From Chitinophagales bacterium (GTDB taxonomy: Bacteria > Bacteroidota > Bacteroidia > Chitinophagales > JADIYW01), in the NCBI GenBank assembly GCA_023957235.1, contig JAMLHI010000010.1:1-64000 (forward strand): DNA of 64,000 bases, given 5' to 3'. The notes below the pieces were generated by a model. That model was not told where the DNA came from. It worked only from the letters and a program-made list of their open reading frames with translations, and did not search any database. Every line of letters starts with the position of its first letter. The first letter of the stretch is position 1. Position numbers and translations under genes: made by a program. Below are positions 52,704-64,000 of this stretch, one piece after another.

Positions 52704-52710
52704 AATAAAA

Positions 52711-53056
52711 TAGTAAACCTATAAGCCGGGTTCTGTCTTGTACAGCGTACAAGTATTGTCATTTATCTAGGCTGATTCTCACAAATCAACTCTATCGAAC
52801 TACCCTCCATGTGTCCAAAAGATAGCTCGGGCAAAGCTAATTCACATGGTATATTTGTTCTTTCAACACCTGAGGTTTTCCATCAATATATATTACTATA
52901 TACCGTCCCCGAAGGGTTTTCACAAGAGCATTCTCTGTAGCACTTTCCGTATAATGCATGTTTCCATACAAAATCCCACCAGTTAGGTGGCAGGTTGCCC
53001 TTTGTTGCCCGGACTTTCCTCTTGCCGAAATCAGCAAGCGACAATACAGTTTACTA
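52711..53056 (-). ncRNA. rnpB: RNase P RNA (class A)
   Basis: On the minus strand the conserved P4 5' part is GAGGAAAGTCCGGGC (near 53020) and the 3' part is near the ACCCGGCTTATAGG end (about 52715-52734). The ends pair: TAGTAAAC at the 5' end (53056-53049) and GTTTACTA at the 3' end (52718-52711) form P1, which fixes the boundaries within a few bases. Length is about 346 nt. This is the catalytic RNA that cleaves the 5' leader of pre-tRNAs, a normal class A fold for Bacteroidota. Confidence 0.95.
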
Positions 53057-53111
53057 ATGCAAATGTATAAGATTTTTCCAGAAGAATATTTTTTCTGATT
53101 ATCTTTCTAAA

Positions 53112-59145: not shown

Positions 59146-59952
59146 CTAAGCTAATTTTCTTTTTAAAGAATAATAAAGCAATCCAAATCCCATGAGAACA
59201 AACGGTACACTCAACAATTGACCACTATTTAATCCCAAAGCGACTTTCTCACTATAATCTGATTTCCAAAATTCCCATAATATTCTAAAAGACAACATCA
59301 AAATAAAAAAGATAGCGGCCATTAATCCTTCTCTGACCTTACCTTGTTTGGAAATATATAAATAGGATAAAATCCCAAATACTAAGGCATAACTAGCAGA
59401 TTCAAAAAGCATTATTGGAATTCTAGGAAAATCCTCTCCGTTCTGAACAAATACAACACCCCATGAACCATCGGTTGGCAATCCAACAATCTCTGAGTTG
59501 AAAAAATTACCCAATCGGATAAATGTCGCAGCCAATGCTACTACCCAACAAATTCTATCGAGCAACCATAAATAAGAATAGCCTTTATGCTTTTTCATGA
59601 ATAAATAAAGCGCAGGTAATATGGTAAAGATAGCACCATGACTAGCTAATCCACCTTCCCAAATTTTAAAAATCTCTAATGGATGCTCAATAAAATAATA
59701 ATGAAAATCATAAAAAAGACAATGTCCAAGTCTAGCACCAATGATAGTGGCTAAAAACATATACATCACTAAATCATCTAAATCTTCAATTTTTTTATTC
59801 TCCTTTTTTGCGATATACACAAAAAGATAATATCCAATAAAAAATGACAAGCCAAACAATAAGCTATACCATCTCACACTGAGAAACCCCAAAAAGTTGG
59901 AAACAATCTCTGGTGATGTATTCCAATAAAATATAAAATTTAACAAGTTCAT
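59146..59952 (-). CDS. lgt: Prolipoprotein diacylglyceryl transferase
   Basis: A 268-residue multi-pass inner membrane enzyme that attaches diacylglycerol to lipobox cysteines. ATG 59952 (MNLLNFIFYWN) is preferred over ATG 59970, which adds six residues. The family motifs are GARLGHCLFYD, the EGGLASHGA region and RLGNFFNSEIVG with the conserved Arg. The PRHP(T/S)QLYE motif is altered to PRIPIMLFE, so the usual histidine is isoleucine. Seven helices are expected. It is cotranscribed with the downstream Cys-rich protein gene (1-base gap). Confidence 0.93.
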   Translation of the reverse strand: MNLLNFIFYWNTSPEIVSNFLGFLSVRWYSLLFGLSFFIGYYLFVYIAKKENKKIEDLDDLVMYMFLATIIGARLGHCLFYDFHYYFIEHPLEIFKIWEGGLASHGAIFTILPALYLFMKKHKGYSYLWLLDRICWVVALAATFIRLGNFFNSEIVGLPTDGSWGVVFVQNGEDFPRIPIMLFESASYALVFGILSYLYISKQGKVREGLMAAIFFILMLSFRILWEFWKSDYSEKVALGLNSGQLLSVPFVLMGFGLLYYSLKRKLA

Positions 59953-59967
59953 CTTTAAAATATAAAT

Positions 59968-59975
59968 CAAATGTA
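59968..59975 (-). promoter_or_regulatory. Candidate lgt promoter -7 element
   Basis: Reads TACATTTG on the minus strand, a full match to TAnnTTTG, 16 bases before the preferred lgt ATG. It supports the shorter start (59952), since the longer ATG (59970) would overlap the -7 element. Confidence 0.5.
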
Positions 59976-60190
59976 TGAAAAACCGCGTAACAAGAGGAAT
60001 GTCTTCTGATAATAATTTAGCTAGGAACTCGTACGCTCTATCACTTACTAAAAGATATCAACCATTCAAATTATAACAACTCTCATCATTTTACCTAAAT
60101 ATATCCATGGCAATCATTTTTTATTCAAGCATCAAAATGATTAAGAATATTTAATATTACATTTTTAAACTTTTAACTACTTTTGTACAA

Positions 60191-60253
60191 ATGAATCAGA
60201 AATTATCTAACTACCCTAATACTTGGGGGCTTAATTTTGAATGTAGGCCTTGA
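60191..60253 (+). CDS. Putative arginine leader peptide (20 residues)
   Basis: A short ORF beginning at ATG only 5 bases after the -7 element, so the transcript would be nearly leaderless. It begins MNQKLSN and ends FECRP, with one arginine codon (AGG) two codons before the stop. The stop codon is in the loop of hairpin 1. It could be a genuine translated leader or simply a chance ORF. A single Arg codon is less than the runs seen in classical amino acid leaders. Confidence 0.35.
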   Translation: MNQKLSNYPNTWGLNFECRP

Positions 60254-60273
60254 GGCCGGCTCATTTTTTCCGG

Positions 60274-60296
60274 AGGTGTACATCACCTTATTTTTT
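60274..60296 (+). terminator. Candidate intrinsic terminator in the arg leader
   Basis: A 5-bp stem AGGTG/CACCT with loop TACAT, then TTATTTTTT. The stem is short, but with a G-U extension (60273/60289) it fits an attenuator that is only partly active. It lies 59 bases before the first arg gene. Confidence 0.5.
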
Positions 60297-60354
60297 CTAT
60301 CCTTTTATTTTTTGGTTGAACCCTTTTTATTAAAAGTATTATTTCTAATTGATA

Positions 60355-61068
60355 GTGAAAATTAATAATGACGATAAATTTATTGTTCAAGTAGCCACAC
60401 TGGCTCATACAATGTATGCAGAAGAGATTTGCAACGCAATGGAAGATTCTGCAAAAAAGAGAGGCACAGGAATAGCAAAACGCAAACCTGAATATGTTTC
60501 TCAAAAAATGTTAGAAGGCAAAGCTATTATTGCCCTTTCTAAAAAAGGAGAATGGGCAGGATTTTGCTATATTGAAGTTTGGGAAGGTAAAAATTATGTC
60601 GCCAACTCAGGGCTTATAGTGTCTGAAAAATTTAGAAATGCAGGATTGGCAAAAAAAATCAAACAGAAAGCATTTGAATTGACACGTAAAAAATATCCTG
60701 ATGCCAAATTGTTTGGAATTACTACCAGCCTTGCTGTCATGAAAATCAACTCCGAATTGGGTTACAAACCTGTTACTTTCTCCGAATTAACACAAGATGA
60801 TGCTTTCTGGAGTGGCTGCCAGAGTTGTGTAAATTACGATATTCTTATGCGTACTAATAGAAAAATCTGTCTATGCACTGGAATGTTATATGATCCTAAA
60901 GTCGAAAAGAAGAAACAGTTTGTTGAAGGATTGAAGAAACAAAACACCAATAAAAAAATCCCCAATAAGCTCTCAGTACCCAAAACTCAAAAGAGTACTA
61001 TAGCTAAAGGATTGAAAAAAACTACAAAAAATAAAATAAATAATTCTAATACAGAAACTAATGACTGA
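60355..61068 (+). CDS. GNAT acetyltransferase of the arginine cluster (N-acylglutamate synthase candidate)
   Basis: A 237-residue GNAT protein from GTG 60355; a TTG at 60349 is the other in-frame choice. The core has IIALSKKGEWAGFCYIEVWEG, NAGLAKKIKQKAFELTRKKYP (the acyl-CoA-binding loop variant) and GYKPVTFSELTQDDAFWSGCQSCVNYDIL. This type is found first in Bacteroidota arg clusters and is thought to replace ArgA, making N-acetylglutamate (or N-succinylglutamate). The last 55 residues are a Lys/Asn-rich tail of low complexity not typical of GNATs. The stop overlaps the argG ATG by 8 bases. Confidence 0.8.
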   Translation: MKINNDDKFIVQVATLAHTMYAEEICNAMEDSAKKRGTGIAKRKPEYVSQKMLEGKAIIALSKKGEWAGFCYIEVWEGKNYVANSGLIVSEKFRNAGLAKKIKQKAFELTRKKYPDAKLFGITTSLAVMKINSELGYKPVTFSELTQDDAFWSGCQSCVNYDILMRTNRKICLCTGMLYDPKVEKKKQFVEGLKKQNTNKKIPNKLSVPKTQKSTIAKGLKKTTKNKINNSNTETND

Positions 61069-62272
61069 AAACAAAAAAGTAGTTCTCGCTTATAGTGGAG
61101 GATTAGACACTTCGTTTTGTGTAAAATACCTCAGTGAAGACAAAGGACTTGAGGTATATGCTATCACTGTTAATACCGGAGGATTCAGCAATCAACAAAT
61201 AGCTGACATACAAACTAGAGCATTATCTCTAGGTGTGAAAGAATATATTGCAAAGGATATTACTAGAGAATATTACGACAAATGTTTGAAATATCTCATT
61301 TTCGGAAATGTTCTCAAAAACAACACCTACCCATTATCTGTCAGTGCAGAAAGGGTTTTTCAGGCTATAGCTGTTGCAGAATATGCTAAATCTATCGGAG
61401 CTGCTTATATTGCTCATGGAAGTACTGGTGCTGGTAACGACCAAGTTCGTTTTGATATGATTTTTAATATTTTGATGCCAGAGGCTGAAATCATTACACC
61501 TATCAGAGATTTGAGATTGAGCAGAGAAGCTGAAATCGAATACTTAAAAGATAAAGGTGTCGAAATTGATGCTGAAAAAGCAAAATATTCTATCAATCAA
61601 GGTATCTGGGGAACCTCAGTTGGAGGAAAAGAAACATTGACTTCTGACCAGACTTTGCCTGAATCTGCATATCCAACTCAACTGACAAAAGAAGGTTCAG
61701 AAGATATTACTATCTCTTTCGAAAAAGGTGAGCCTGTAGCATTGAACGGCAAAAAATACGACCATCCGACTCAAGTAGTTCAGGAACTGGAGCGTATTGC
61801 TGCACCGTATGCTATCGGTAGAGATATCCACGTGGGCGATACTATTATCGGTATCAAAGGTCGTGTAGGATTTGAAGCTGCTGCTCCATTGGTGATTATC
61901 AAAGCGCACCATTTATTGGAAAAACACGTTTTGACCAAACAACAATTGACTTGGAAAGATATGCTCTCCAATCCTTATGGCAATTTCTTACATGAGGGGT
62001 TGTTTTTTGAACCTGCAATGAGAGATTTTGAAGCTTTTTTCAGTTCCACCCAATCTCATGTCACAGGTGATGTGATCATCAGATTACAACCATATAGATT
62101 TATCACTGTAGGAATTAAATCTCCTTATGATTTGATGCAAAGCAAATTTGGGTCTTATGGAGAGATGAACAATGCATGGTCAGGTGATGATGTGAAAGGA
62201 TTTGCCAAAATTTTTTCTAACCAGATTATGATTTATACTAAAGTCAAAGAAGCTATTGAACACAACAAATAG
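61061..62272 (+). CDS. argG: Argininosuccinate synthase
   Basis: A 403-residue enzyme that joins citrulline and aspartate with ATP. It has the N-type P-loop AYSGGLDTS (10-18), TVNTGGFSNQQI, HGSTGAGNDQVRFD, and the family-specific SINQGIWGTSVGGKETL. Length is normal. It is translationally coupled with the preceding GNAT gene, and argC follows 23 bases later, consistent with one arginine operon. Confidence 0.97.
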   Translation: MTENKKVVLAYSGGLDTSFCVKYLSEDKGLEVYAITVNTGGFSNQQIADIQTRALSLGVKEYIAKDITREYYDKCLKYLIFGNVLKNNTYPLSVSAERVFQAIAVAEYAKSIGAAYIAHGSTGAGNDQVRFDMIFNILMPEAEIITPIRDLRLSREAEIEYLKDKGVEIDAEKAKYSINQGIWGTSVGGKETLTSDQTLPESAYPTQLTKEGSEDITISFEKGEPVALNGKKYDHPTQVVQELERIAAPYAIGRDIHVGDTIIGIKGRVGFEAAAPLVIIKAHHLLEKHVLTKQQLTWKDMLSNPYGNFLHEGLFFEPAMRDFEAFFSSTQSHVTGDVIIRLQPYRFITVGIKSPYDLMQSKFGSYGEMNNAWSGDDVKGFAKIFSNQIMIYTKVKEAIEHNK

Positions 62273-62295: not shown

Positions 62296-63264
62296 ATGAA
62301 AAAAAAAGTAGGAATAATAGGAGCTGCTGGCTATACTGGAGGAGAATTAGTGAGAATCTTACTCTTTCATCCATTAGTAGAGTTAACTTTTGCATATAGT
62401 CGCTCACAAGCCGGCAAATCTATTGACACTGTCCATTCTGATTTGATTGGTGATACTGATTTAAAATTTACTGATATCATTTCAAAAGATATTGATATTC
62501 TATTTTTGGCTTTACCCCATGGCCAAGCTAAAATATTTTTAGAAGAGCATTCTTTTGCACCTGAAACAGTGATTATCGACCTAAGTAATGATTTCAGACT
62601 ACAAAAGGATGCTGGAGATTTTATTTATGGCCTTCCTGAATTTCAAAGAGAGAAAATCAAAAAAGCAAAAAGAATTGCCAATCCAGGTTGCTTTGCAACT
62701 GGAATACAATTAGGACTATTGCCTCTAGCAAATGCTTCATTATTACAATCAGATATACATATCAGTTCAATAACAGGTTCGACTGGTGCTGGAGTAAGTT
62801 TATCACCCACCACCCACTTCACTTGGAGGAATAACAATATTTCGACCTATAAAATGTTTGATCACCAACATCTTGGAGAAATAGGAGAAACATTATTGAG
62901 TTTGCAAAAAGATTTTAAACATCATATCCACATGATACCCTACAGAGGAGATTTCCCCCGCGGTATTTTCACTACAATTTATACTTCTTTTGAGGGTACA
63001 ACAGAAGATGCTCAAGAGTTGTATAGCACATTTTATGCAGCTCATCCTTTCACCTATGTGACTAATATAAATCCTGATTTAAAACAAGTCGTAAATACGA
63101 ATAAATGTATCTTATTCCCATTTGTAAAAAATGGACAAATAGCAATTATTTCTATAGAAGACAATTTATTAAAAGGTGCATCAGGACAAGCAGTTCAAAA
63201 TATGAATCTCATGATGGGCTGGGAAGAAACAAGTGGATTAAAACTTAAAGCAAGTGCATTTTAG
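62296..63264 (+). CDS. argC: N-acetyl-gamma-glutamyl-phosphate reductase
   Basis: A 322-residue NADPH-dependent enzyme of ornithine synthesis. The Rossmann start GIIGAAGYTGGELVRIL (6-22), the catalytic Cys132 in NPGCFATGIQLGLLPL, and the HMIPYRGDFPRGIFTTIY block with the catalytic His are present. The short form length (about 320) is normal for Bacteroidota. It reduces the acylglutamyl phosphate made by ArgB, whose gene is not in this window. Confidence 0.96.
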   Translation: MKKKVGIIGAAGYTGGELVRILLFHPLVELTFAYSRSQAGKSIDTVHSDLIGDTDLKFTDIISKDIDILFLALPHGQAKIFLEEHSFAPETVIIDLSNDFRLQKDAGDFIYGLPEFQREKIKKAKRIANPGCFATGIQLGLLPLANASLLQSDIHISSITGSTGAGVSLSPTTHFTWRNNNISTYKMFDHQHLGEIGETLLSLQKDFKHHIHMIPYRGDFPRGIFTTIYTSFEGTTEDAQELYSTFYAAHPFTYVTNINPDLKQVVNTNKCILFPFVKNGQIAIISIEDNLLKGASGQAVQNMNLMMGWEETSGLKLKASAF

Positions 63265-63296
63265 CCTTGAATTTTCAAAATAAGAAAAAACTAAAA

Positions 63297-64000
63297 ATGA
63301 ATTTATTTGATGTATATCCTTTATTTGATTTGACACTAGTAAAAGGTAATGGTTCAGAAGTTTTCAATGAAAAAGGAGATAAATATTTAGATTTTTATGG
63401 TGGTCATGCGGTGATATCAATTGGTCATAACCATCCTCATTGGGTAGAAAGACTACAATATCAAATGAATGAAGGGATTTCTTTTTTTTCCAATTCGGTC
63501 AAATTACCTATACAAAATGAATTGGCTGAAAAACTAGGAAAAACATCTGGTTATGACGATTATTCTTTGTTCTTGGTCAATTCAGGAGCTGAAGCCAATG
63601 AAAATGCCATTAAAATAGCTTCTTTTCATACAGGTAGAAAAACGATTATCTCTTTTTCAGGAGCTTTTCATGGTCGTACATCAGCAGCGGTTGCTGCCAC
63701 CGACAATAAAAAAATCAAAGCCTTAGTGAATCCTGATGATCACGTCATCTTTCTTCCTCTAAATGACAAGAAAGCACTAGATAAAACTTTTGCTGAAAAT
63801 GAAGTGGCATGCGTAATCATAGAGCCTATTCAAGGTGTCAACGGCATTTATGAAGCCACTCCTGAATTCTTACAACAGATTTCTCAAAGATGTAAAGAAT
63901 ATGGAGCCTTATTTATTGCTGATGAAGTACAATGTGGATATGGTCGATCAGGTAAGTTTTTCGCTCACCAATGGGCAGGAGTGTTGCCTGATATGATTAC
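63297..64000 (+). CDS. argD: Acetylornithine (or succinylornithine) aminotransferase, partial
   Basis: The first 234 codons of a PLP class III aminotransferase. The start MNLFDVYPLFDLTLVKGNGSEVFNEKGDKYLDFYGGHAVISIGH, then NSGAEANENAIK, AFHGRTSAA and IIEPIQGVNGIY and the PLP-site Asp in DEVQCGYGR are the family pattern. The catalytic Lys lies beyond the right edge. Its place directly after argC (32-base gap) supports the ornithine step. Whether the substrate is acetyl- or succinylornithine cannot be told from this part. Confidence 0.93.
   Translation, partial: MNLFDVYPLFDLTLVKGNGSEVFNEKGDKYLDFYGGHAVISIGHNHPHWVERLQYQMNEGISFFSNSVKLPIQNELAEKLGKTSGYDDYSLFLVNSGAEANENAIKIASFHTGRKTIISFSGAFHGRTSAAVAATDNKKIKALVNPDDHVIFLPLNDKKALDKTFAENEVACVIIEPIQGVNGIYEATPEFLQQISQRCKEYGALFIADEVQCGYGRSGKFFAHQWAGVLPDMI

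Follow-up and report, generated by a model that had tools for sequence, protein, structure and literature searches.

The classical attenuators of the trp, his and leu operons place a short leader ORF, with a hairpin and a terminator downstream, before the biosynthetic operon for the same amino acid, and the locus described here is laid out in a similar way. Moreover, the runs of the control codon that mark these attenuators are present in the wider family of arginine leaders to which the locus appears to be related. Upstream ORFs that read arginine have been described in Salmonella, where the Arg codons of orf34 (speFL) before speF report arginine supply and alter downstream RNA structure (PMC6386406), and in Staphylococcus aureus, where rare AGG and AGA codons in the small upstream ORF rbfL sense arginine restriction (PMC13009471). 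Within the phylum Bacteroidota, the main text of a study of Flavobacterium psychrophilum reports leader-peptide attenuation upstream of amino-acid operons and names no arginine leader (PMC9723704). The literature that we searched, which consisted of the main texts of openly accessible articles, did not describe an arginine leader from Bacteroidota, and Rfam release 15 gave no match at the locus or in 20 relatives at either gathering or loose thresholds.

The window is a stretch of 64,000 nucleotides from a Chitinophagales bacterium (assembly GCA_023957235.1, contig JAMLHI010000010.1, positions 1 to 64,000 of the forward strand), and its genome is denoted G000 below. Four plus-strand genes stand at its end in the order GNAT-argG-argC-argD, as stated in the original prediction, which had been made by reading the letters: a GNAT acetyltransferase gene with a GTG start (60355-61068; Pfam PF00583 at its borderline), argG (61061-62272; TIGR00032, 293 bits, cut-off 268), argC (62296-63264; TIGR01850, 303 bits, cut-off 234), and an argD-like class III aminotransferase gene that is incomplete at the window end (63267-63998; PF00202, with TIGR00707 as the best NCBIfam match). 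The GNAT protein is, by inference, a probable N-acylglutamate synthase of arginine synthesis, because its position next to argG resembles that of BT3761 beside argG (BT3760) in B. thetaiotaomicron; BT3761 is probably the N-succinylglutamate synthase that catalyzes the first pathway step in Bacteroidota (PMC7311316). On the minus strand, the divergent neighbor of the leader (59146-59970) encodes a protein that resembles, by eye, prolipoprotein diacylglyceryl transferase, and an RNase P RNA of bacterial class A lies at 52706-53057 (RF00010, 180 bits).

Several parts of the original prediction hold up in the region preceding these genes. The −7 promoter element TACTTTTG (60178-60185, plus strand; Bacteroidota consensus TAnnTTTG) is followed after five bases by the ATG at 60191 of a leader ORF with 20 sense codons, MNQKLSNYPNTWGLNFECRP (60191-60253, plus strand), and the start codon is therefore expected to lie at, or adjacent to, the 5' end of the RNA. 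Its sole Arg codon is one AGG near the end of the ORF (60245-60247), a codon that accounts for about 10% of Arg codons, or 3.2 per 1000, in 50 ORFs of the genome; taken alone, the leader ORF displays no enrichment in Arg. The stop codon, TGA (60251-60253), falls in the loop of hairpin 1 (60246-60257), in which GGCC (60246-60249) and GGCC (60254-60257) enclose TTGA, and folding suggests that this hairpin can be extended by pairing GAATG (60239-60243) with CATTT (60262-60266). Nascent-RNA folds give a candidate antiterminator in which CATTTTT (60262-60268) pairs with GGAGGTG (60272-60278). The terminator-like hairpin GAGGTG-TACAT-CACCTT with its T run (60273-60296; stem 60273-60289, followed by ATTTTTTC, which holds T6) stands about 60 bases 5' of the GTG start of the GNAT gene. 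A consensus scan of the 430-base stretch returned two terminator-like sites where 0.2 are expected from shuffles, and the site at 60273-60296 is a putative intrinsic terminator between the leader stop and the first gene on the strength of its consensus match only. The whole leader folds no better than its own shuffles (z −0.53).

The switch that had been proposed between two mutually exclusive hairpins fares differently. The second of these, formed by CCGG (60256-60259) and CCGG (60270-60273), does share bases 60256-60257 with hairpin 1, but the closest relative lacks it, CCGG having become CCCAG there. In addition, the CCGG/CCGG pairing has no overlap with the AGGTG arm of the terminator (60274-60278) and therefore could not switch termination. 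We rejected it as the switch, and this hairpin (60256-60273) is probably not functional.

Of 396 genomes from the order, 222 had a match to the GNAT protein, as had 170 of 392 from the phylum, and 213 distinct upstream regions were collected; the family labels Flavobacteriaceae, Saprospiraceae, and Chitinophagaceae are inferred from family codes. For 212 of these regions we counted each amino acid over the ten codons preceding every stop and kept the largest count per region. Arg-rich ORF tails recur directly 5' of the GNAT gene, ending before the stop codon in RRRP, RRPRI, PRRR, or VRR. Examples are the leaders MLTQLTNIVRRDRRRVRRTK, MLTVSPRIRLLRRRI, MKNCQTYTNINAISRRFRRPFRV, and MQILCAHRINFTPLRRIPRRR, the tail SLTRRNRRVRRRP, and the further tails RPFSRRRRP, FRPRRPRR, and RPIPFWVRR. 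The mean maximum for Arg is 3.29, compared to 1.81 in dinucleotide shuffles and 2.04 on the reverse strand, and at least four Arg codons are seen among the last ten in 37.7% of the 212 regions, which are related and so do not represent independent events, compared to 2.4% in shuffles and 7.1% on the reverse strand. Arg alone among the amino acids is strongly enriched at the ends of these upstream ORFs, and the leader peptides vary in sequence and length between families. Moreover, 30 of 151 Arg leaders, but only 1 of 1510 shuffles, have a −7 box followed by an in-frame start at a distance of 3-8 bases, and so do 20 of the 37 leaders with at least five Arg codons; among the 151, the gap is most often exactly four bases. 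These spacings place the leader start at, or next to, the first base of the RNA in a substantial part of the family. Even so, few mRNAs of the Bacteroidota are leaderless: the share is 5.5% in F. psychrophilum (PMC9723704), and 5' UTRs under 10 bases make up 3.7% in B. thetaiotaomicron (PMC7366714).

These comparisons point to a phylum-wide and apparently uncatalogued family of Arg leader peptides, the existence of which we regard as highly certain; we are moderately certain of its function in the window's genus. The leader in the window occupies the orthologous position directly 5' of the GNAT gene and has a −7 box at the family spacing, but its last ten codons do not include several Arg codons. 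Because it has one AGG only, we file it as a reduced orthologue, on the basis of its position and its R-P-stop hairpin, rather than as a full member by codon count. Orthologous leaders in other families have runs of Arg codons in this position, and an attenuation leader for arginine is therefore supported more strongly than the original prediction had thought, although not by the hairpin switch proposed there. The view there that classical starvation sensing is not strongly supported stands for the window's genus but not for the wider family, with its several Arg codons. On balance, the element probably acts as a ribosome-dependent attenuator for the GNAT-argG-argC-argD operon and belongs to this family.

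In a DNA search against 40 relatives, the leader itself was recovered only from two congeners, G001 (the closest relative) and G002; a match in G006 proved to be a chance match at another place and was discarded. Both congeners have 20-codon leaders, MNQELFTHPIIWGLNFECRP in G001 and METLFCSHLFLQVSYNECRP, with a GTG start, in G002, and the aligned −7 boxes TATTTTTG and TAACTTCG lie five and four bases, respectively, before the leader starts. The leaders of all three species end in ECRP and a stop codon, with one AGG as the Arg codon in each. Other members of the window's family differ in this respect: the leader of G005 is MRRLRPISTPIATRRRCR, and that of G003 ends in RKYRNRPLA before its stop, with AGGCCTTTGGCCT and a T stretch, and has a second, terminator-like stem, AGGCATTTGCCT, with a T-rich tail. 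A sister genus retains RRRCR before the stop, and in genus g3 the promoter is close to the GNAT gene and the leader is absent. In the GNAT tree the family is grouped, with the Arg-rich genus g4 as sister to g3, which has no leader, and the ECRP genus (g1) apart. This tree is consistent with leader reduction and loss, and the likely history is an Arg-rich ancestor followed by reduction in g1 and loss in g3; on this comparison, the ECRP end of the window's leader is a reduced RRRP. Of the original prediction, the ORF end and hairpin 1 are kept in the two congeners, and the second hairpin is lost in G001.

Reduction might have gone so far that the element is a relic, meaning an ancestral arginine attenuator which, having no control codons, does not respond to arginine and whose promoter, ORF, and terminator are a fixed brake or a neutral leftover. 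One Arg codon is left, g3 has no leader at all, and the N-terminal leader codons diverge freely between G000 and G001, all of which fit such a relic. Against this, the 17 bases around the stop codon (TGTAGGCCTTGAGGCCG, a single occurrence per genome) are identical in the three species, with strongly diverged flanking bases in G002; the promoter spacing and the 20-codon length of the ORF are preserved in G002; and the terminator stem AGGTG/CACCT is retained in G001 despite a different loop. We therefore consider a relic unlikely.

If the element is an attenuator, as we prefer, a ribosome would start at the 5' end of the RNA, reach the Arg-Pro-stop segment about 20 codons on, and cover hairpin 1. 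When charged tRNA-Arg is short, the ribosome would stall at AGG and leave CATTTTT free to pair with GGAGGTG; this pairing would occupy the arm of the terminator, and transcription would continue. With the ribosome at the stop codon, or with hairpin 1 holding CATTT, the AGGTG/CACCT terminator would form instead. In the four-segment scheme, pairing 1:2 would correspond to GAATG..GGCC with GGCC..CATTT, 2:3 to CATTTTT:GGAGGTG, and 3:4 to the terminator, CATTT being also the partner of GAATG in the prolonged hairpin 1. With the bases covered by the ribosome masked, we folded the nascent RNA as far as the terminator loop; under this treatment the trp control behaves as expected. The paired fraction of the 5' arm of the terminator has a mean of 0.71 with AGG in the A site (0.97 in G001 and 0.45 in G002) and of 0.31 with the stop codon in the A site (0.62 in G001 and 0.09 in G002), and the counterpart of the antiterminator pairing in G001 is TCATTTTT:AGAGGTGA. 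Equilibrium folds of the full leader are uninformative even for the trp control, the terminator winning at every ribosome position. The candidate antiterminator is rich in G-U pairs, and the CATTTTT:GGAGGTG pairing is a proposal rather than a result because 12-15% of the spacer shuffles give an equally good result in each species and because the effect of ribosome position in G003 is not above that of its spacer shuffles. With a single AGG in the window's genus, starvation sensing is likely to be weak there, and we expect the arginine response to be shallow. An Arg codon next to the stop codon of Salmonella orf34 does not sense arginine, whereas a tandem pair does (PMC6386406), and the rare AGG of S. 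aureus rbfL can report arginine (PMC13009471). By analogy, it is quite possible that the arginine response of the window's genus is weak or lost.

In the family, the Arg codons that close the ORF lie within a hairpin or beside one, and hairpins of the same design as that of the window are seen elsewhere. In the branch with RRRP tails, the 5' arm consists of the Arg-Pro codons and the 3' arm of the bases that follow the stop codon, which itself forms the loop, as in CGCCCG-TAA-GGGTG (Flavobacteriaceae-type) and GTCGCCC-TAG-GGGCG, and AGGCC-TTGA-GGCC in the window has this layout and the same R-P-stop end. The stop codon lies in a hairpin loop in 73 of 142 leaders, compared to 39 to 62 at shifted positions; as this excess is only modest, we did not retain the feature as a general family trait. 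Leader tails form more stable pairings with the sequence that follows them than with the corresponding sequence of other loci (−5.6 vs −4.7 kcal/mol). Flavobacteriaceae-type leaders (e.g. L124, L126, and L143) have a second hairpin further downstream, which lacks a T run and whose apex, AGGTGAGTCC, is nearly invariant. Its stem exhibits compensatory changes, with CG, AT, TA, and TG at one pair, and 70 of 70 cells are paired, against no more than 67 after exchange of 3' arms between species, a comparison that leans slightly towards structure since the better of two registers was picked for the true pairs and the swaps were not refitted. Five loci of this type (L120, L121, L132, L137, and L141) have two elements in series. 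The distal one is an Arg-rich ORF some 200 bases upstream (e.g. MITSRRNKLCTTIVPSLRLRNRRR), and the proximal one is a CGCCC hairpin that carries a separate short frame.

Clear T-run terminators are present in only 29 of 143 family leaders, compared to 9% in shuffles, perhaps implying that transcription termination is not the output everywhere. Control might instead be exerted on translation or mRNA stability, with the ribosome on the leader reshaping the RNA 5' of the GNAT gene or shielding it from decay or Rho. This explanation draws on the lack of a clear T-run terminator in most of the family, on the hairpin with the conserved apex and no T run, and on the precedents of Salmonella orf34 and S. 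aureus rbfL, which act on Rho, decay, or translation (PMC6386406, PMC13009471). The window, however, has a terminator-like stem with T6 at its short distance from the GNAT gene, and the start region of that gene is AT-rich and unstructured, making this form of control rather unlikely here.

Alternatively, the nascent peptide might be the sensor, such that a high or low level of free arginine, or of a pathway intermediate, makes ECRP stall the ribosome at Pro-stop, much as TnaC stalls in response to tryptophan. Termination is slow when Pro precedes the stop codon, the C-terminal ECRP is conserved in three species, and other branches have fixed tails such as RRPRI and WVRR. We nevertheless regard a peptide sensor as improbable: the conservation of GAATGTAGGCCT is also explained by the hairpin, what recurs in the family is the number of Arg codons rather than one motif, and known arrest peptides need residues further upstream, where this peptide is not conserved. 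It seems to us quite improbable that the genus has converted a sensor of arginine starvation into a peptide sensor acting at termination, in which ECRP would pause the ribosome at Pro-stop depending on the level of free arginine or of an intermediate and ribosome release would be read by the stop-codon hairpin. The ligand-binding RNA for arginine or a related metabolite that the original prediction had also allowed would suit a location before a biosynthetic operon but is very improbable, given that Rfam matches are absent at the window and in the 20 related loci up to E 1, that folding is no better than in shuffles, and that length and sequence vary outside the conserved part, which is the peptide tail and its hairpin.

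Returning to the attenuator reading, leaders of related kinds are encoded elsewhere in the window's genome. The trpE leader MIQNSTFQAWWWHLSI follows a TATATTTG box and precedes an antiterminator and a strong terminator (L239, G000:C10, bases 1310-1440), and the GGCGAGC right after its stop codon can pair with GCTCGCC of that terminator; with WWW in its peptide, this leader is, by its layout, a textbook attenuator. The genome also has another GNAT gene, a solitary paralogue with 42% identity, at about 325600-326050 of G000:C12 (L240, L246), and the frame 5' of it ends in FCISFLLRRG before the stop, with FYRRNELV in G001 and FFRQGQR in G002. Arginine leaders thus seem to be present at two loci of the genus, and the trp leader together with the RR frame before the second GNAT gene argues that leader-peptide control is very probably used in the window's organism. 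Upstream of hisG (L238, G000:C10), a short ORF, MFTAFIHIQFFYHSS, with two separated His codons follows a TATCTTTG box and is possibly another reduced leader.

Taken as a whole, the family probably signals arginine shortage to the cell, with a sensor that would have only one Arg codon left in the genus of the window. Leader-peptide control that has neither an Rfam family nor an arginine description in the literature searched appears to govern the committed first step of arginine synthesis in Bacteroidota, and the placement of the starts suggests that translation of leader peptides often begins at the extreme 5' end of the RNA in this phylum. Moreover, the series from seven Arg codons to one and to complete loss forms a comparative set in which the minimum for codon-based sensing is measurable.

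The locus departs from the described systems in several respects. Compared to the classical attenuators, the amino acid sensed is arginine, the start codon lies at the expected 5' end of the RNA, and one arm of the hairpin that encloses the stop codon is made of the Arg-Pro codons; the window's leader also has a single AGG in place of tandem control codons, and its 2:3 pairing is only a candidate for that of the four-segment scheme. Salmonella orf34 controls an ornithine decarboxylase through tandem Arg codons in the middle of the ORF and uses Rho, RNase G, and translation. S. aureus rbfL blocks the ribosome binding site of a regulator gene and involves neither a terminator nor a biosynthetic operon, whereas the element described here would act through a putative terminator placed before an operon for arginine synthesis.
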